Assembly: GCF_019879105.1 (NCBI RefSeq)
Contig: NZ_CP082247.1
Coordinates: forward strand, 62,001-126,000
Direction of reading: 5' to 3'
From: Natrinema sp. SYSU A 869
GTDB taxonomy: Archaea; Halobacteriota; Halobacteria; Halobacteriales; Natrialbaceae
Length of the DNA: 64,000 nt
Shown: positions 18,949-35,867 of the stretch, in pieces
Layout: each line of letters starts with the position of its first letter
How positions within the stretch are numbered: the stretch's first letter is position 1
The notes under the pieces: model-generated
What the model saw: only the letters and a program-made list of their open reading frames with translations
The model's database searches: none
Told to the model about the DNA's origin: nothing
Translations under genes and position numbers: made by a program

Positions 18949-19325
18949 CTGGGCCGATATCTTGGACGCCATCTCTTCTGAACAGAGTTCAATAGCTGTC
19001 TGTATACTCGGGCGACACGGATGCATAACGGCGTCTATCGATGAGAGAGCGTCTATCGATGAGAGCCGAAAAGGCTAGTGGATCCGCTTGCTACGGGACA
19101 GCACGGAACTAGCTTTTCGGAGAGCTACGACAAGTGGCGCAGGTCACCCCAACTGATTTCGGGGCCAGAGCAGTTGCCAACTCATAGTCTGGTATCTTAC
19201 TGCATCTGTTAGCGCCGTGTGACGAGTTATTCCACCGGAATATAAATTCTGCTATCTGTCTACTATATATACATAAATAATGAATGTTGCCGCTCAGATT
19301 TCAGCGAGTGTTGCCGCGGTGCATA

Positions 19326-19956
19326 GAACAGCGGACACGATGGTGTCCCAGTACCAATCCAATGAGAGAGACAAGACTCGTTAAAATGTAACAACACTCG
19401 CTGAAACCTGCCTGCTGTTCTATGACGCCCGCCTGTGTTTCCGAGTGATAGGGTTCCGCCCAGTATATACCAGTGAATAGCGTAGTTCCCACTAGACAGC
19501 CACACTAGACACGAAGAGACTCGTGAGGTGAGTCATAGACTCACGAAGAGAACAGCGGACAGAGTGGTGTGAGATAGTGGATGGGCGGCTATTGCTCTAT
19601 CTGGGAGGCTGTGATATGAACCAATGAGAGAACCAGAGTGGACAAAGTGGAATTATGATATCGCTCGATGGTCAGCAAAAGAGGACACACCCACCCCACC
19701 ATGTCCGCTGTTCTCCTCCGAAGTTCAAACAAGTTGATGAGCCGAAGAATATTTCAACCATAACACCTGTGGAATTTGTTCCCGAAGTTGCCATTTGGAC
19801 TAGCTCTCATTACACCGTTTAAATATTCCTCTTTCTAGAGGACTCTTCTACTGGTAGTCCTAGTTGTGGAGATTACTGCGGACATGGTGGGGTGGGTGTG
19901 TCCTGCGATCTGATATAAATCAAGAGAACAGCGGACACTCCGGACAGGGTGGTTTT
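19326..19956 (+). repeat. Iteron family 1 upstream of orc1/cdc6 copy 1
   Basis: Copies of a GAACAGCGGACATGGTGG-type site occur at 19326 (+), 19550 (+), 19683 (-), 19878 (+) and 19924 (+), with a weak copy near 19630. The last overlaps the core promoter region of the orc1/cdc6 gene, suggesting autoregulation. Two more copies lie beyond the gene's 3' end. Gene-specific arrays of this kind are the usual Orc1/Cdc6 binding sites (ORBs) of haloarchaeal replicons. Confidence 0.75.
19683..19903. other. Candidate replication origin 1
   Basis: A perfect 26-bp inverted repeat (19683-19708 and 19878-19903; arm core CACCCACCCCACCATGTCCG) encloses about 170 bases of AT-rich sequence. It lies 92 bases before the orc1/cdc6 start. 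Inverted ORBs around an unwinding element, directly upstream of the initiator gene, is the standard archaeal origin layout. Origin activity is inferred, not shown. Confidence 0.7.
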
Positions 19957-19994: not shown

Positions 19995-21254
19995 ATGAGT
20001 CTATTCGAACGCGACACTGAAATCTACAAAAATCGCGATGCGTTACGAGAGGATTATCAACCGAAACAACTCGTCGGTCGTGACGAAGAAATACAAATGT
20101 ATCAGGCTGCGTTACAGCCTGTGATCAATGGTGAACAGCCAAATAACGTCTTTCTCTACGGGAAAACCGGCGTCGGGAAGACTGCAGCAACTAGATATCT
20201 CCTCTCTCACCTCGAGGAAGACGCCGAACAGTACGACGACATCGATCTCCATCTCACTTTTCTCAACTGTGACGGTCTCACCTCATCGTACCAAATCGCG
20301 ACGCGGCTGGTTAACGAACTTCGAGACGAGACGAACCAGATTAGTACCACTGGGTATCCGCGGGCGACAGTCTACGAAATGCTGTGGGACGACCTCGACG
20401 AGATCGGCGGAACCAATCTGATCGTCCTCGACGAAGTCGACCACGTCGAAGACGATTCGATCCTCTATCAGCTTCCTCGAGCTCGAGCGAACAACAATCT
20501 CTCCGCGGCGAAGATCGGAATCATCGGCATCTCGAACGATTTCTCGTTCCGTGACGACCTCTCCCCGAAAGTGAAAAGCTCGCTCTGTGAACAGGAGATT
20601 CACTTCCCTGCCTACGACGCAGGCGACCTCCAGAAAATCCTCGAACAGCGTGCGGAAGTCGCATTTCACGATGATGTCCTTGATGACGCGGTGATTCCAT
20701 TGTGTGCAGCGTACGGCGCAAAAGACGCCGGTGATGCCCGTCAATCGATCGACCTTCTCATGAAAGCCGGGGATCTCGCTCGAGAAGAGGACGAGGCAAC
20801 GATCGTTACTGAAAGCCATGTAGAAGCGGGTCGTCATGACCTGGAACGCGGGCGTATTGAAGAGGGTATTAGCGGGCTTACGCAACACGGTCACTTGGTG
20901 TTGTACTCGTTGCTCACACTCCACCTCCAGGACGAAACCCCGATTCGGTCTCGAGATGTCCGCCCTCGCTACACCAACTTTGCGCAGCGGGCCGGACGAG
21001 ACCCGCTCGTTCCGCGTCGAATGCGCGATCATCTGTCGGAACTCGCCATGCTCGGACTCGTTTCGGTCACTGAGCGTAATGAGGGCCGACGTGGGGGCAC
21101 ATACCGCGAGTACACACTCGATATGGATGTCGAACTCATCGTTTCGGCACTCGATGAGATCCTTGACGATGTTGGTATCCATGATTCAATTCAAGATCAT
21201 TTAATTGACGCCGATTCGACCAATGAGAACACATCATTAGCTGAATTTTATTAA
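19995..21254 (+). CDS. orc1/cdc6: Orc1/Cdc6-type replication initiator, copy 1
   Basis: AAA+ initiator of 419 residues that binds origin repeats and loads the MCM helicase. Walker A is YGKTGVGKTAATR near residue 55 and Walker B LIVLDEVDHVED near 140. The AAA+ lid (GDARQSIDLLMKAGDLA) and a C-terminal winged helix (about residues 300-400, ending in the TYREYTLDMD region) complete the fold. The length is typical. Family-1 iterons flank both ends of the gene and none matches the repeats around copy 2, so each initiator seems to have its own origin. Orc paralogues of this type are usual on haloarchaeal plasmids and on integrated replicons. Confidence 0.92.
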   Translation: MSLFERDTEIYKNRDALREDYQPKQLVGRDEEIQMYQAALQPVINGEQPNNVFLYGKTGVGKTAATRYLLSHLEEDAEQYDDIDLHLTFLNCDGLTSSYQIATRLVNELRDETNQISTTGYPRATVYEMLWDDLDEIGGTNLIVLDEVDHVEDDSILYQLPRARANNNLSAAKIGIIGISNDFSFRDDLSPKVKSSLCEQEIHFPAYDAGDLQKILEQRAEVAFHDDVLDDAVIPLCAAYGAKDAGDARQSIDLLMKAGDLAREEDEATIVTESHVEAGRHDLERGRIEEGISGLTQHGHLVLYSLLTLHLQDETPIRSRDVRPRYTNFAQRAGRDPLVPRRMRDHLSELAMLGLVSVTERNEGRRGGTYREYTLDMDVELIVSALDEILDDVGIHDSIQDHLIDADSTNENTSLAEFY

Positions 21255-21940: not shown

Positions 21941-22324
21941 ATGAAGACTACACGGCACGCGACCTACAACCTCAACTACCACATCGTGTGGTCGCCGAAG
22001 TACCGCCAGTCGGTATTCGTCAACGAGGTCGCTGACCGTGTGCGAAACATCCTCCACGAAATCGCCGACGAGAAGGGAGTAGAGATACTCGACATAACCG
22101 TCCAACCCGACCACATCCATCTGTTCGTCAGTAGCCCGCCGAAACACGCTCCCTCGCTTCTCGCTAACTGGTTCAAGGGAATTTCCTCGCGGAAATACAA
22201 CCACCGCTACGCCGATAACGAGAGTGAGAAGATTCGCTGGGCGCGAGGCTACTACGCAGGGACGGCGGGGAACGTCTCCAGCGAAACGGTTCAGGACTAC
22301 ATCCAGCGTCAACAGAACTCATGA
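21941..22324 (+). CDS. tnpA: IS200/IS605 transposase TnpA (Y1 HUH)
   Basis: 127 residues, the usual size for a Y1 transposase. It has the family opening YNLNYHIVWSPKYR, the HUH metal motif HIHLF near residue 65, and the catalytic tyrosine in the C-terminal helix (TVQDYIQRQ). It cuts and joins single-stranded DNA at the hairpin ends of the element. The frame is intact. Confidence 0.93.
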   Translation: MKTTRHATYNLNYHIVWSPKYRQSVFVNEVADRVRNILHEIADEKGVEILDITVQPDHIHLFVSSPPKHAPSLLANWFKGISSRKYNHRYADNESEKIRWARGYYAGTAGNVSSETVQDYIQRQQNS

Positions 22325-22385: not shown

Positions 22386-23624
22386 ATGACGGAACTCACC
22401 AAGACGCTGGAACTGAAACTGGTCGACCCAAACGCCCACAAGCAGAGGAAACTCCGTGAGACGCGGGACGCCTACCAGCAAGCCCTCGCGGATGCGTTCG
22501 ACGCTGGTTGTACCACCCAGACCGAAGCGAATGACGTGGTGGTCAACTACGACCTGTCAGGGTACGCGAAGAACGCACTCAAGAAGTACGTCCCGCAACT
22601 TACGACGACCTACAACGCGGGCGAACTTCACGACGACCACCCCGTTCGCTTCACCAATGAAGGACTGCGACTTGACCACAAGCCCGAGAACGCTATCGAG
22701 TGGTACGTCAAAATCCCCCATCACGAAGACTATCACCTCTGGATACCAGCACAACCGAATCCCGATCAGCGGGACTGGCTGGAAGCGTTGAACGCGGGAG
22801 ACGCCAAGATGGGCGAGAGTCGCCTATTCGAGCGGGACGGGATGTGGTATCTCCACGTCACCGCCACCCGAAACGTGGAGGACTATTCCGTGGTGTCTAC
22901 CGACGAACAGACACCCATTGGAGTAGACATCGGAGAAGCGTCACTCGTCACGGTGTGTCACCGCGACGACCACGGTTCTCCGACCGCGCCCGAACTGTGG
23001 GCTGACGAGGGCAAGACCGTCCGTCGGCTCCGTAAGACCTACTTCACTGCCACTCGCCGACTCCAGACGCGCGGGAGTGAGCGTATCGCGGAGTCCTTCA
23101 GGGACGACGTGTGGAACCTGATAGACGATATATTCCACACCGTCACCCGCGGAGTTGTGGAGTACGCCGAATCCGTCGAGAATCCTGTTCTTGTTCTAGA
23201 AGACCTGACGTACATACGGGAGTCGATGGACTACGGCGACTTCATGAATCGGCGTCTCCACGGATGGGGATTCGCCAAACTCCACGCGCAGATACGCTAC
23301 AAAGCTGTCGAGAAGGGTATCCCCGTCAAGACGGTGAACCCGCGCAACACATCGAAGGAGTGCCATTCGTGCGGTGAAGTGGGGTATCGTCCAAAGCAGG
23401 CGACGTTCAAATGCACGAACGACGGCTGTTGGATGGGCGAGTACCAAGCGGATGTGAACGGCGCGATAAACATCGCAGACCGCTACCTCAGCGGAGAGAG
23501 TCGTTTCAGAGAACACACGGACGACGATGACTCGGCTGAGGATGGGGCGCGTTTGACCGCGCCACAAGACAGCCAAGCCGATGCTGAAACCCAGCAGAAG
23601 ACGCTTGGAACGTATGCGTCTTGA
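22386..23624 (+). CDS. tnpB: RNA-guided nuclease TnpB of the IS605 element
   Basis: 412 residues. The RuvC-like nuclease is complete: first Asp in GVDIGEASLV (near residue 180), Glu in VLVLEDLTYIRES (near 270) and last Asp in QADVNGAINIADRY (near 360). A zinc finger with CHSC and CTNDGC sits between the second and third motifs. TnpB uses a right-end RNA as guide to cut the empty donor site and so preserve the element. The C-terminal tail after the last Asp is disordered and overlaps the predicted guide-RNA region. Confidence 0.92.
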   Translation: MTELTKTLELKLVDPNAHKQRKLRETRDAYQQALADAFDAGCTTQTEANDVVVNYDLSGYAKNALKKYVPQLTTTYNAGELHDDHPVRFTNEGLRLDHKPENAIEWYVKIPHHEDYHLWIPAQPNPDQRDWLEALNAGDAKMGESRLFERDGMWYLHVTATRNVEDYSVVSTDEQTPIGVDIGEASLVTVCHRDDHGSPTAPELWADEGKTVRRLRKTYFTATRRLQTRGSERIAESFRDDVWNLIDDIFHTVTRGVVEYAESVENPVLVLEDLTYIRESMDYGDFMNRRLHGWGFAKLHAQIRYKAVEKGIPVKTVNPRNTSKECHSCGEVGYRPKQATFKCTNDGCWMGEYQADVNGAINIADRYLSGESRFREHTDDDDSAEDGARLTAPQDSQADAETQQKTLGTYAS

Positions 23625-23732: not shown

Positions 23733-23962
23733 AAACACTTCGATAGAGGTGTGTCCGGGTTCTCAGGAATTGAAAAGCCACCAAGAGACGAGATAATCAC
23801 AGATCGAGGATAAATAGACATACCATCACTATACTGCATAGACCTGCTGGTCCCATACTGTATATAACAAATTGCTACGTTTCCAGCTCTCAGCTACCGT
23901 TGGTCGACATCACACATCGATAGAGGTGTGTGGTGGATGGAGAAACATATCGATAGAGGTGC
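23733..23962 (+). repeat. Iteron family 2, copies downstream of orc1/cdc6 copy 2
   Basis: Three copies of an ACACATCGATAGAGGTGTGT-type site near 23735, 23911 and 23944, all in the same orientation, lie just beyond the 3' end of the second orc1/cdc6 gene. Confidence 0.75.
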
Positions 23963-23980
23963 CTATCGAACCGAGCGGTG

Positions 23981-25420
23981 TCACGTCTCGTTTCGAACCT
24001 GTGCGTTGACGACACTCGTCACTTCGTCCGGAGAGACCATGTCGAGACGCGAATCTTCGCGAAGCGTTTCGAGGATCGTCTCGGGACGTTCGCCGAACTG
24101 GAACTCGAGGAACATCCCCGAACTCGGTCCGTGGCTCCGACGTTCGAAGTCGACGAGCGAGTACGTCGTCATCTCCTTCATCTTGTTGACGTAGGTTTCC
24201 TGGTGATACTGTTCGGCATCGATCGCGTCCGTGAGGAACTGGTACACTCTGTACCCAGTTGTACTGCGAGCGGATTCGTCGTTTGTCTCAGAAGCCACGG
24301 CTGCCGTTGCGTAGAGGCACAATTTCTTCTGTGTACTGATACCACGGACGACTTCGAGGACCCGGTTCTTCTCGACCTTGTCTTGGGCTTCGCGAACGTG
24401 TTCTTCACGGACGCTTCCATCACCTTCACGTTCTGCGAGCTCGCCAGCAACGCGCATCAGATCGATCGCCTTGCGAGCATCGCCGTGGGTCTGAGCCGCA
24501 AAGGCTGCCGCCAGCGGGATGACGTCCTCGTCGAGGACGTCCTCATAGAACGCGTCCTGGCGGCGACGGAGGATCGACTGAAGCTGGTTCGCATCGTAGT
24601 CGTCGAAATGGACGTCCTCGGGCGTGAACGAACTCAGGGCTCGACTACCAACCGACTCCATCATTTTCGTATCGTTAGAGATTGCGACGACAGAGACATG
24701 CGCAGTGAGATCGTTCGTTGCACCGGCTCGAGAGAGTTGATAGAGCAGTCGAGAGAACGCCGGCTCCTGTTTATCTCGCCGCCCGACGAGCATATCGAGT
24801 TCATCGAGGACGAATACCGCCGAATCGAAGTTCTCGTTGACGATACGATAGAGTTCGTCCCACTTTTCTTTCGTCGCGACGCCGTGTTTCGGGACTTCGA
24901 CCGCAACGTCGGCTTTGTCCGCAGCGCGACTCGCTAGTTCATAGACGGCGACGCCGAGAGTATCGAGATCCTGGCAGTTAACCTCGATCGTTCCGAACCG
25001 AATATCTCGCGTCTCACAGATGTTACTGATGTTCTTGCAGACGGCTTTCGTGATGAGTGATTTGCCAGTTCCGGAGGGACCGTAGAGAAAGAGATTTGGG
25101 GGGCGATTGTCGCCGAGAGCGACACGAAGCATCTTGGTAACTTCTTGGAGTTGCCTGTCGCGACCGACGATTCGATCTTCCTCGACGATATGATTTGGAT
25201 CGAGGAGCGATCGATCTCGAATGAGCCCTTCCTGTTGATCGAATTCGAGTAGCATATCCTCGATCGACTGTGATTCATCTGTCGTCGACGGCTCGGTCGA
25301 GGTGGGAGATGTCTCGGGCGTAGTGGAATCAGATGAGGGAACTGCCTGCTCTGTCGTCTCGTTTTCCGATGTCCCCGCCCCGTCTCGACGATCCTCAACG
25401 TCGTCCATACGATGATCCAT
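23981..25420 (-). CDS. orc1/cdc6: Orc1/Cdc6-type replication initiator, copy 2
   Basis: 479 residues. A disordered acidic, Ser/Thr-rich N-terminal extension of about 65 residues precedes the AAA+ core. Walker A is LYGPSGTGKSLITK near residue 112, Walker B SAVFVLDELDMLVG near 190, and the lid GDARKAIDLMRVAGELAE follows. A winged-helix domain occupies the last 110 residues. ATGs at codons 1 and 5 are both possible starts. It faces away from copy 1 and is surrounded by a different iteron family, so the two are not simple duplicates. It probably recognises its own origin. Confidence 0.92.
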   Translation of the reverse strand: MDHRMDDVEDRRDGAGTSENETTEQAVPSSDSTTPETSPTSTEPSTTDESQSIEDMLLEFDQQEGLIRDRSLLDPNHIVEEDRIVGRDRQLQEVTKMLRVALGDNRPPNLFLYGPSGTGKSLITKAVCKNISNICETRDIRFGTIEVNCQDLDTLGVAVYELASRAADKADVAVEVPKHGVATKEKWDELYRIVNENFDSAVFVLDELDMLVGRRDKQEPAFSRLLYQLSRAGATNDLTAHVSVVAISNDTKMMESVGSRALSSFTPEDVHFDDYDANQLQSILRRRQDAFYEDVLDEDVIPLAAAFAAQTHGDARKAIDLMRVAGELAEREGDGSVREEHVREAQDKVEKNRVLEVVRGISTQKKLCLYATAAVASETNDESARSTTGYRVYQFLTDAIDAEQYHQETYVNKMKEMTTYSLVDFERRSHGPSSGMFLEFQFGERPETILETLREDSRLDMVSPDEVTSVVNAQVRNET

Positions 25421-25444
25421 ACAGGGTAGGACTAAAAGTGTTCC

Positions 25445-26248
25445 CCACCCCTATCGATGTGTATATCCCCGATTGAACGGTTGATATACCGGTAATATAC
25501 GGAGAGAGAAAAGGACATGAGTGAATTAGGTTCTGACGAACGACGAAGTGTTCCGAACGCACAGTGACTTGACTGATCGATCCTAGAGACAGACACCCCT
25601 CTATCGATGTGTTTGAGACTTCGAGAGAGAGGGGGTAATTGACGAGCGTCGCTGAGGCGTGACCGGTAATAGAACATCGCTCCGTTGGATTTTGGGAATT
25701 GGGGTGTAGCGGACCAGAAAACAGGGTTCTCTTTTCTATTCTACTATACTACTAGACTAGATCTAGACTAGATACCCCCACACCCCTCTATCGATGTGTT
25801 CGATGTGTTTCGGCTTGATCGTATTCTGTCATCCTGCAAACGCGGTCCGCTGGACAACTCCTCGAGGACAGAATCATCCCTATACTCTGTCTATACTCCG
25901 ATCTATAACTATATTCTCGCAAGACGGGTCCCTTTTCTCTCCTGAATGGCCTCCTTCCCTCTTTGACCGTAGCCCAAAACACATCGATAGAGGGGTGTCT
26001 GTCTCCTCTATTCTTTCTCATCACATCTTCTGGAAGCGGTCTCACAATACAGAACATATCGATAGAGGCGTCTCTTGATGCGGTTCCTGGTCAGTAGTGG
26101 TCAATAACTGAGCCCGTAGTAAGTGAACACATTTTCATCGTTCTGAACTCAACCCTCTCATCGGTAGTCTCTCTTGAGCAGTGCCGACCTGATCAGCTCG
26201 AGACAAATGTGACTCCTTTGCAGAAACACATCGATAGAGGGGTGTCTG
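25445..26248. repeat. Iteron family 2, copies upstream of orc1/cdc6 copy 2
   Basis: Six sites with core ATCGATAGAGG (or its complement) lie near 25445 (-), 25593 (-), 25780 (-), 25978 (+), 26053 (+) and 26226 (+). Orientation switches between 25800 and 25978, so the sites point in opposite directions around a central segment. The intervening short open reading frames run through the repeats and are not genes. Confidence 0.78.
25780..25998. other. Candidate replication origin 2
   Basis: A perfect 21-bp inverted repeat (25780-25800 and 25978-25998; core ACACATCGATAGAGGGGTGT on the right arm) encloses about 177 bases. A very AT-rich patch with repeated CTAGACTAGAT lies just to the left (25735-25775). 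Scale and layout match candidate origin 1, but the repeat sequence is unrelated. Confidence 0.7.
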
Positions 26249-32132: not shown

Positions 32133-33407
32133 ATGAGTCGAACCATCCGAACCTTCGAGGCCACGATACTGAACCAGCAACAGGTTCGTGACGACCTCAA
32201 CCAACTCGGATGGGCCGCCTCAAAACTCTGGAACGTCGGTCGCTACTACGCACAAGAACAGTGGGACGAAACGGGCGAGATTCCCGATGACGGGGAACTC
32301 AAAGCCGAATTCAAAAGCCACGAACGCTACACGGACTTACATTCTCAATCCAGTCAGCGCGTTCTCGAAGAACTCGCTGAAGCGTTCAACGGCTGGTTCG
32401 GCAAGCGTCGGAACGGCGACGACCGTGCCCGACCGCCCGGCTACCGCAAAAACGGAGACTCCCACCCACGTTCAACCGTGTCGTTCAAAGCGGCTGGCTT
32501 CAAGCACGACGCACAGTTCACCCGCGTTCGCCTCTCAAAAGGACGCAACCTCAAAGAACACCGTTCAGACTTCATCTTGTGCGAGTATCAGACTCGCCCA
32601 GATGTTGACCTGACCGAGTGGGACATTCAACAGGTTCGCGCCGTCTACAAACGTGACGAGTGGCGACTTCAATTCGTCTGTCGAACCACCATCGACCCGG
32701 AACCACCGGGAGACGAGGTGGCTGGTGTTGACCTCGGTATTTGCAACTTCGCCGCCGTCTCATTCGGCGGTGAGTCGGTGTTGTATCCGGGTGGCGCACT
32801 CAAAGAGGACGAATACTATTTCACCAAGAAGAAAGCCAAGTGCGACGATTCCTCGTCCCGTGAGGCGACTCGTCTCGACCGGACGCGAACGGGTCGTCGA
32901 ACACACTTCATGCACGCACTCTCGAAATCTATTGTCGAAGAGTGCGTTGAACGAAGTGTTGGTACGCTTGTCGTTGGTGACCTCGGTGGCATCCGAGAAG
33001 ACGACGAGAACGGCGAGCCTCGGAATTGGGGCGACCACGGCAATCTCGACTTGCACGGGTGGGCATTCGACAGCTTCACGACGCTTCTCGACTACAAGGC
33101 AGAATCCGAGGGCATCGACGTAGAGTTGGTGTCGGAACGCGATACGTCTAAGTCGTGTTCGGCGTGCGGCCACATAGACGATAACCAGCGCGTTGAACGC
33201 GGGTTGTACGTGTGTGAGGAGTGCGATACGGTTGCGAATGCGGACGTGAATGGTGCGGAGAACATTCGGCAGAAGGTACTCCCGAGTCTCGTCACGGATG
33301 GCGGTGATAGGGATAACGGCTGGTTGGCACAGCCAGCGGTTCACCTGTTCGACCGTAGTGAGGGCTGTTTCGCCCCACGAGAGCAGGTTGCTAACCGCGA
33401 ACCGTAA
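32133..33407 (+). CDS. tnpB: TnpB-type RNA-guided nuclease without TnpA, altered RuvC-II motif
   Basis: 424 residues with an open frame. RuvC-I is AGVDLGICNFAAVSFGG and RuvC-III NADVNGAENIRQK. The zinc finger has CSACG and CEEC. The middle motif reads LVVGDLGGIREDDEN, with Gly where the canonical Glu stands; a nearby Glu in GIRED may replace it, as reported for some TnpB lineages. There is no tnpA beside it, so any movement needs TnpA from elsewhere, such as the element at 21.8 kb. The tail beyond the last Asp overlaps the predicted guide-RNA scaffold. Confidence 0.88.
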   Translation: MSRTIRTFEATILNQQQVRDDLNQLGWAASKLWNVGRYYAQEQWDETGEIPDDGELKAEFKSHERYTDLHSQSSQRVLEELAEAFNGWFGKRRNGDDRARPPGYRKNGDSHPRSTVSFKAAGFKHDAQFTRVRLSKGRNLKEHRSDFILCEYQTRPDVDLTEWDIQQVRAVYKRDEWRLQFVCRTTIDPEPPGDEVAGVDLGICNFAAVSFGGESVLYPGGALKEDEYYFTKKKAKCDDSSSREATRLDRTRTGRRTHFMHALSKSIVEECVERSVGTLVVGDLGGIREDDENGEPRNWGDHGNLDLHGWAFDSFTTLLDYKAESEGIDVELVSERDTSKSCSACGHIDDNQRVERGLYVCEECDTVANADVNGAENIRQKVLPSLVTDGGDRDNGWLAQPAVHLFDRSEGCFAPREQVANREP

Positions 33408-33913: not shown

Positions 33914-35740
33914 TTATTCGTCCTCAAGCAGCCCAGCCTTCTCGATCTCGTCTCGGACGATCGCCCGGATCTCGGCTTCGCTCCGACCAGTATCGTTCCG
34001 TGCAGCGGCGACCTCCTCGTTCAGCGCGGACATGAGTTCAAAGACATCCTCAAGCTGATCGTAGGCGTTCTTGTGCTCGCTCTCGAACATCTTCGCGGAC
34101 AGCGCCGCCGTATCGGGATCGGCCTCGCGTTCAACGGCAATCGGCGTCAACCGCCGGCTTCGGGTGACCGTCTCGACGCTGTCGACGTTCTTCGCGAGGT
34201 GGTTCCCGAGGTGCTCCTGGGCATAGTCTGGCCCGTGGATCAACGCGATCGTCTCCGGATCGACTGTCCGTGCGAAATCGAGTAGCCCTTGCTGGGAAGC
34301 GTGTCCGCTCAACCCGCCGACTATCGATACCCACCCGGTCGGGATTGTCGCTCGAGTCACGGGTTCGTTCGAATCCTCAGCAGTGATCCAGGTCACGTTA
34401 TCGGCAGCCGGCCAGTCGGTCCTAAAGGGTTCGGCGTTGGTGGTGAACTGTACCTCCTCTGTCTCAGCGTCGACTTGGTTCTGGATCGTCCGACCGGTCG
34501 TCTGCAGAGCCTGATATCCCGTGAGCAGAACGGTCGCAGCGTGGAACCGAGATGCGAGTTCAACGAGATATCGCGGGGAGTTTCCACCGGTCAGCATCCC
34601 CGAGGGAGCGATGATGATCGGCACCTTCCCGCCCGAGGATGGGTCGGCGTCCTCGAGAATCGCTCGCCGGTCGGCGTCGGTCTGGGGGAACTCGACCTGC
34701 GGTGGAGAAAACGGCGTGTCATCACCACTCTCTTTCGCACGATTCGTGATCGCCTCGTCCATATAGTCCGTATCGGTGACGTACTCGTGGTAGAGGTCCG
34801 TCGCCTCCTCTGCCATCCCGTCGACGACAAGTCGAACCCGGTCACTAAGATCGCCGGGCAGCGTATGAAGTCGATCGGAAAAGAGCAATTGGAGCGTCTG
34901 TGCCCGCCCGACAGCGAAGGTCGGGATCAAGACGGGCTCGCGGTTGTTCAACGCCCGTTCGACGGCGTTGTAGATCGTCGTCTGGGCGTCGCTGAATGCC
35001 GTATGGCTGTGTGTATCTCCGTAAGTGGACTCGAGGAACAAGACATCAGCCTGCGGTGGGGGCGTGATATCTGGAAGATGGCTCGCGCGGCCACCGAGAT
35101 CGCCGGAGAAAACGACACGATAGCCCTCGGTCTGGAGCATGAGCCACGCCGAACCGAGCAGGTGGGCAGCGTTTCCGTACTGATACATCAGCGGATCTCG
35201 GTCGACCTCGTCGGCAACGGCCTCGACACGACCGCCGCCGTAGTCAACGGGTTCGAAGCGATCAAACACTGCCTGTACATCTTGTTTAGTGAACTGCTGT
35301 GCCCCACCGCCGCGATTCGTCTCCCGGCGATGGATCTTCAACGAGTCCTCAAGCAGTGTCTTCGCGAGGTCGATCGTCGGTCGCGTCGCGATGATCGATG
35401 CATCATCGTTCAGGTACCCCTGTGCCTCGAGTACGGGCAACCCGCCGCAGTGATCGATATGAGCGTGGGTCAGAAAGACAGCGTCGACTGATTCTGGGCC
35501 GAGACCGCGGAAGTCGGGATAATCCCCCTCATCACCTTGATTGAGTCCACAATCGACGAGATAGGTACCATACTCTGTGTCGATTTGGTAGCAACTCCGT
35601 CCGACTTCGCGATCACCACCTCGTGGCGTGATGACAATCGGTCGATCTGCAGAGGGATGTACCTTAGCATGCTCGAGTGGATCAAATTCTTGGCCGGCAC
35701 CGGCGGGTATCCACGGTGTTTCAGGGTTTATTCCAGACAT
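33914..35740 (-). CDS. Beta-CASP metallo-beta-lactamase ribonuclease (RNase J/CPSF-like)
   Basis: 608 residues. The MBL domain has FLTHAHIDHCGGLP near residue 95, a later His in GNAAHLLGSAW and the Asp ligand in VVFSGDLGGR. The beta-CASP insert carries IPTFAVGRAQTLQLL and APSGMLTGGNSP. The C-terminal return to the MBL fold shows GLSGHASQQGLLDF and IALIHGPDYAQ, the motif set of RNase J and CPSF73-like nucleases. A helical acidic tail follows. The start at MSGINPETPW is chosen over an upstream ATG whose extra 41 residues are not family-like. It is not adjacent to KH-domain sequence, unlike the housekeeping aCPSF1, so it is probably an accessory nuclease. Confidence 0.88.
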   Translation of the reverse strand: MSGINPETPWIPAGAGQEFDPLEHAKVHPSADRPIVITPRGGDREVGRSCYQIDTEYGTYLVDCGLNQGDEGDYPDFRGLGPESVDAVFLTHAHIDHCGGLPVLEAQGYLNDDASIIATRPTIDLAKTLLEDSLKIHRRETNRGGGAQQFTKQDVQAVFDRFEPVDYGGGRVEAVADEVDRDPLMYQYGNAAHLLGSAWLMLQTEGYRVVFSGDLGGRASHLPDITPPPQADVLFLESTYGDTHSHTAFSDAQTTIYNAVERALNNREPVLIPTFAVGRAQTLQLLFSDRLHTLPGDLSDRVRLVVDGMAEEATDLYHEYVTDTDYMDEAITNRAKESGDDTPFSPPQVEFPQTDADRRAILEDADPSSGGKVPIIIAPSGMLTGGNSPRYLVELASRFHAATVLLTGYQALQTTGRTIQNQVDAETEEVQFTTNAEPFRTDWPAADNVTWITAEDSNEPVTRATIPTGWVSIVGGLSGHASQQGLLDFARTVDPETIALIHGPDYAQEHLGNHLAKNVDSVETVTRSRRLTPIAVEREADPDTAALSAKMFESEHKNAYDQLEDVFELMSALNEEVAAARNDTGRSEAEIRAIVRDEIEKAGLLEDE

Positions 35741-35867
35741 ATCCGAATAGAGAGACGGGGGCCACATGGGCTTTTGGTGCGCCAAATGAAAGCTACTCGT
35801 CAGCGTCGGCCTCGGTCTCGATGTCCAGTTGTCGCTTGAGTTCCTCGGCGTAGCTGGCAACATGACT

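Follow-up and report, generated by a model that had tools for sequence, protein, structure and literature searches.

The locus described here, origin 2, very probably is a site where DNA replication starts on a large haloarchaeal replicon, with its own initiator, encoded by orc1/cdc6 copy 2, and nine boxes (ORBs). All positions refer to the window, the whole stretch of 64,000 nucleotides from Natrinema sp. SYSU A 869 that we have analyzed. As judged by its sequence, the locus is a member of a widespread family of haloarchaeal plasmid origins with a box of its own. We are confident, if short of certain, that it forms a self-contained replicator of the Orc1/Cdc6 type with plasmid ancestry, with a proposed scheme for unwinding, autorepression and titration. 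The original prediction, a second candidate origin with a private repeat family, is supported by the array itself, the adjoining intact Orc1/Cdc6 gene, the genome-wide exclusivity of the box and its conservation next to homologous Orcs in 67 of 68 related loci.

This family of haloarchaeal plasmid origins, which has a sharply defined box and is found across many genera, makes three questions testable: where an archaeal initiator melts DNA, how two Orc lineages with boxes one fixed base apart coexist in one cell, and what difference, if any, the orientation of the unwinding core makes.

The box array

The 21-nt inverted repeat that had been proposed is real. Its arms (25780–25800 and 25978–25998) are 100% complementary, with a spacing of 177 nt. 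By chance, about 6e-4 such pairs are expected in the whole window, and 8e-6 within 400 bp. This repeat is the central portion of a nine-site set with the consensus AACACWTCGATAGAGGKGTGT. The estimate of about nine sites was accurate: There are nine ATCGATAGAGG-type sites, seven of them exact and two with one mismatch. Their placement has to be corrected. They were all said to lie upstream of orc copy 2; six do (25444–26244), while the other three are found beyond its stop codon (23735–23963). A longer perfect inverted repeat of 29 bp had been missed: 25586–25614 pairs with 25977–26005, enclosing the middle ORB, and its arms correspond to ORBs 2 and 4. The 20-mer ACACATCGATAGAGGGGTGT, allowing up to three mismatches, occurs 7 times in the window (0.01 expected). 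Like other haloarchaeal origins of the orc/cdc6-adjacent ORB type, the locus has two or more G-string-bearing ORBs in inverted orientation. The boxes and repeat arms are the following:

25444–25462, minus strand: ORB 1, promoter-proximal, abutting the orc promoter
25586–25614, minus strand: ORB 2 and flanks, left arm of the 29-bp inverted repeat enclosing the core
25780–25800, minus strand: ORB 3, the core ORB, left arm of the 21-bp repeat; its G-string continues into the unwinding-type element
25977–26005, plus strand: right arm of the 29-bp inverted repeat, which includes ORB 4
25978–25998, plus strand: ORB 4, right arm of the 21-bp repeat
26054–26072, plus strand: ORB 5, with 3 mismatches
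26226–26244, plus strand: ORB 6
23735–23753, plus strand: downstream ORB, putative titration cluster
23912–23930, plus strand: downstream ORB, putative titration cluster
23945–23963, plus strand: downstream ORB, putative titration cluster, right after the orc stop codon

The initiator gene and its control

An intact orc1/cdc6 gene directly adjoins the array, another feature of haloarchaeal orc/cdc6-adjacent origins. The gene and its promoter are found at these positions:

23981–25420, minus strand: orc1/cdc6 copy 2, 479 aa from the first ATG, with AAA+, Cdc6 lid and winged-helix domains (TIGR02928, Cdc6_lid, Cdc6_C)
25432–25439, minus strand: TATA-like box ACTTTTAG upstream of orc copy 2, some 27 nt ahead of Met5, of the leaderless type, recognized from the sequence; its GGTGGGGAACACTTTT context is conserved in relatives

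The protein scores 423.5 bits against TIGR02928 (cut-off 181.3), is above the cut-off for both Cdc6_lid and Cdc6_C, and shows sequence similarity to the archaeal Orc1/Cdc6 proteins of known structure, 2qby and 2v1u. Its true start is probably Met5 (25408), since the first codon is not kept as ATG in one relative (L039). The gene-proximal ORB ends in an ORB-TATA junction, GGTGGGGAACACTTTT, which is conserved in relatives, and the start codon follows about 27 nt further on. This is the distance expected for a leaderless archaeal promoter. Orc bound at ORB 1 would sit against the orc promoter, which suggests autorepression. A cluster of three cognate ORBs (23735–23963) lies directly downstream of the gene, an arrangement of the oriC2D type. 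It would fit titration of the initiator, by analogy with Haloarcula hispanica oriC2, for which deletion and plasmid tests support titration by the downstream ORB cluster oriC2D (PMC3936714).

A possible course of initiation may be outlined. The product of orc copy 2 would recognize the nine ORBs of its own locus. If the solved archaeal Orc-DNA complexes are taken as a guide, the CATCGAT part of the box would be read by the winged helix and the GAGGGGTG G-string by the AAA+ domain. The initiator bound to the ORBs around 25586–26005 would open the weak CTAG/purine element at 25731–25775, and MCM would be loaded at the opened element, beside the G-string of ORB 3. Autorepression through ORB 1, together with titration by the three ORBs behind orc, may then limit the initiator, the latter restricting re-initiation.

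Exclusivity of the box

The private character of the box holds for the whole 5.67-Mb genome. The 17-mer, with up to two mismatches, is found at the nine sites of the locus and at two isolated positions elsewhere. Sites equally common in other parts of the genome would have spoken against the prediction; the origin 2 locus is instead their sole cluster. The motif also differs, as proposed, from that of origin 1, which is AGAACAGCGGACA: The G-rich tail is the sole part that they share. The genome has five exact copies of AGAACAGCGGACA, all of them at origin 1, whose features are:

19325–19946, unstranded: origin 1 box array, AGAACAGCGGACA..TGGTGKGT, a different ORB
19995–21254, plus strand: orc1/cdc6 copy 1, neighbouring origin 1 and outside origin 2, 29% identical to copy 2

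In a motif scan of the other Orc loci of the genome, most of them have a distinct box, usually with a CACACCCC-type G-string. Since most Orc loci carry different boxes, private boxes are the rule in this genome, and origin 2 is no oddity. Two pairs of loci on the contigs C1, the 891-kb replicon, and C2 have a box in common: G000 C2:254235 with C1:463714 (L014/L016), and C1:568206 with C2:520383 (L022/L023). These shared Orc/ORB sets could possibly mean cross-talk or duplicated origins between the replicons. Near origin 1, window positions 19031–19065 contain two 17-bp tandem copies of GCGTCTATCGATGAGAG, which include ATCGATAGACG; this is close to the origin 2 core and has no G-string.

Related loci

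We retrieved 69 related loci and used 68 of them; they are not independent, so the counts given here overstate the number of events. Fifty are considered close relatives, those with at least 79% identity plus L104. They contain 237 upstream and 164 downstream ORB sites, and a reversed control pattern had no match in these 50 loci. Most have three to six upstream ORBs inverted around a core, as well as a downstream cluster whose sites point the same way, as do 161 of the 164 downstream sites. At least one downstream ORB is found within 700 bp of orc in 48 of the 50. The 20-mer is present in 81 of 293 genomes of the order, belonging to 32 of 87 genera; the control matches none. In 20 of the best 40 plasmid records, this Orc is the only one detected. 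Other Orcs on these plasmids should have shown, since the two 29%-identical paralogs of the window match at E ~1e-46.

The ORB sequence is linked to the Orc family, a further characteristic of haloarchaeal orc/cdc6-adjacent ORB origins. A sister Orc clade (67–71% identity) has the related box AACAAATCGATAGRGGTG, with A in place of C at the fourth position of the ACAC core in essentially all its sites. Its downstream cluster has the opposite orientation to that of the close relatives. There are 46 near-fixed protein differences between the clades, seven of them within residues 424–441, in the winged-helix region. These seven are candidates for the specificity switch. Both clades are found together in at least four species: Halobellus captivus, Halorubrum salsamenti, Halocatena pleomorpha and Natrinema zhouii. 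In Natrinema versiforme (L041) and N. zhouii (L042), a homologue of orc copy 1 (94%) lies less than 4 kb downstream of the copy 2 homologue, which means that part of the genus has kept the double origin.

A candidate unwinding element

One element of the array stands out for its weak duplex and its conservation:

25731–25775, minus strand: CTAG/purine element adjoining the extended G-string of ORB 3, a candidate for the duplex unwinding element

Within it, 25734–25773 is the least stable 40-mer of the ori region, in the top 0.03% of the window. The space between the 21-bp arms is 50% AT as a whole; the AT-rich region expected between an inverted pair corresponds to 25731–25775 within the 29-bp pair, not to the 21-bp pair as a whole. 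In 63 of the 68 loci, one ORB far outscores the others for the sequence that follows the G-string; the score picks the best ORB by design, and the remaining ORBs at each locus provide the control, with the second-best mostly below 10. The high-scoring ORB has GT repeats after the G-string, followed by TCTAG..CTAGAAGAAGAGAAG. In Halorubrum and Halobellus, the form after the GT repeats is like TTAATAGAATAAGAGAAGAG. A strict element pattern is found in six genomes, at the ORB cluster wherever both lists are comparable. A search of the window for CTAGNNNNNCTAG gave no match, because the spacing is different in its own element. This conserved, very unstable GT/CTAG/purine element is likely the unwinding site.

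The core may be present in either orientation. The element-bearing ORB is oppositely oriented in about 8 of 49 close relatives. In the three that were tested (L071, L041 and L105), the segment enclosed by the flanking inverted ORBs gives a better alignment when inverted than in direct orientation (for example, 0.50 vs 0.26 and 0.51 vs 0.16), while in non-flipped pairs the direct alignment is the better one. The simplest reading of these alignments is that the core would flip by recombination between ORBs.

Triplets of the type [T/A]A[G/A] show a weak excess beside the box, with a mean longest run of 2.92 vs 2.07 in shuffles (63 related loci). The window's own element has only two consecutive triplets; elsewhere, L138 has AAG repeats, and L071 seven triplets. 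It is conceivable, if rather unlikely, that Orc1/Cdc6 origins of this family hold a discrete unwinding module comparable to the DnaA-box/DnaA-trio, which could be inverted via the flanking ORBs without loss of function. Such a module would consist of one specialised ORB, an extended GT-rich G-string, and a CTAG/purine or AAG-triplet tract.

Comparison with known origins

The kind of site is known. According to Wu et al. 2012 (PMC3528665), haloarchaeal orc/cdc6-adjacent origins have, like origin 2, an intact orc/cdc6 gene and inverted G-string ORBs in intergenic regions, sometimes with ORBs on both sides, and their ORB sequence is tied to the Orc family. Unlike those origins, the origin 2 copy and its genome are outside that study. 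Members of the orc copy 2 family are found on two replicons which it covers, Natronomonas pL131 and H. lacusprofundi pHLAC01. The single Orc of pL131, origin-associated in Table 1 of PMC3528665, belongs to this family and has the same ORB. We considered whether the pHLAC01 gene is the published two-ORB locus Hla_3512 and rejected it: The shared ORB given in that text is absent beside the gene.

Haloarcula hispanica oriC2-cdc6E has the same arrangement as origin 2, with the origin upstream of orc and an ORB cluster directly downstream; according to PMC3936714, its oriC2D cluster limits initiation, probably via initiator titration. The likeness is one of arrangement; there are three downstream ORBs at origin 2 vs eleven at oriC2D (PMC3936714). 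The ORB2-DUE-ORB3 region of Sulfolobus oriC1, with its ucm motif, also has inverted ORBs around an unwinding region with a short conserved non-ORB motif (PMC12141716). Unlike in Sulfolobus, the origin 2 element abuts the G-string of one ORB and is CTAG/purine-rich. The bacterial BUS/DnaA-trio (e.g., PMC8287927) has a comparable order of initiator box, spacer and [T/A]A[G/A] triplet run, which is found in some of our loci. This is an analogy only: The initiator is Orc/Cdc6, not DnaA, and the triplet likeness is weak and not universal.

A text search of the literature for the origin 2 box sequence gave no match. The available text of PMC3528665 has no account of the CTAG/purine element, of a flipping core or of the one-base difference in the ORB relative to the sister clade. 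No description of the conserved unwinding-type element, the flippable core and the self-control layout was found in the portions of these sources covered.

Activity and alternative explanations

From the sequence, we infer that initiation would take place at origin 2 in this genome. Nevertheless, C1 has at least six other intact Orc genes besides orc copy 2, at least seven in all, so the origin could be dormant: an intact replicator from an integrated plasmid, silent as other origins of the 891-kb replicon fire. This is a sub-case of the replicator explanation, as it concerns activity and not identity. We consider dormancy a real possibility, though not the one to be expected. Dormant haloarchaeal origins have been published (PMC4595724), transposase ORFs adjoin the locus, and a clear GC-skew signature is absent there: The skew extremes of the 891-kb contig are at 333 and 752 kb (minimum near 752 kb), away from the locus at about 87.9 kb, where the local change is marginal only. 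On the other hand, Orc is intact, and so are the ORBs, among them the promoter ORB and those of the downstream cluster, and on many plasmids the origin 2 Orc family is the only Orc.

The presence of plasmids with no other Orc also argues against the idea that the boxes serve orc chiefly as an autoregulatory operator array and do not form an origin. One ORB does abut the TATA-like box in a conserved junction, and three boxes are downstream of orc, as such an array might have. However, the boxes reach 800 bp upstream, in a conserved inverted layout with one conserved weak-duplex element, which makes this explanation very improbable. Even less credible is an iteron-like or partition-site array, bound by Rep or ParB and located beside orc by chance. 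Repeats flanking one gene on both sides are also typical of iterons and parS arrays, but no Rep or ParB gene was recognized beside the array among the ORFs examined, and the box, which has a G-string, varies with the Orc clade. A replicator with its own Orc remains the preferred explanation.

Some other features of the replicon may be mentioned. The GC content of C1 (891,417 bp) is 0.61–0.65 at about 0–80 and 760–891 kb, and mostly 0.52–0.60 in between, where the Orc genes lie; this uneven composition makes the replicon look composite. A TnpA-like ORF (21941–22324) and a TnpB-like ORF (22386–23624), as in IS200/IS605 elements, sit in the stretch that separates orc copy 1 from the origin 2 downstream ORBs. 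At 33914–35863, the window codes for a beta-CASP metallo-beta-lactamase protein, which matches the aCPSF1 and type VII CRISPR Cas14 models, both well below cut-off. A second TnpB-like ORF is found at 32133–33407.
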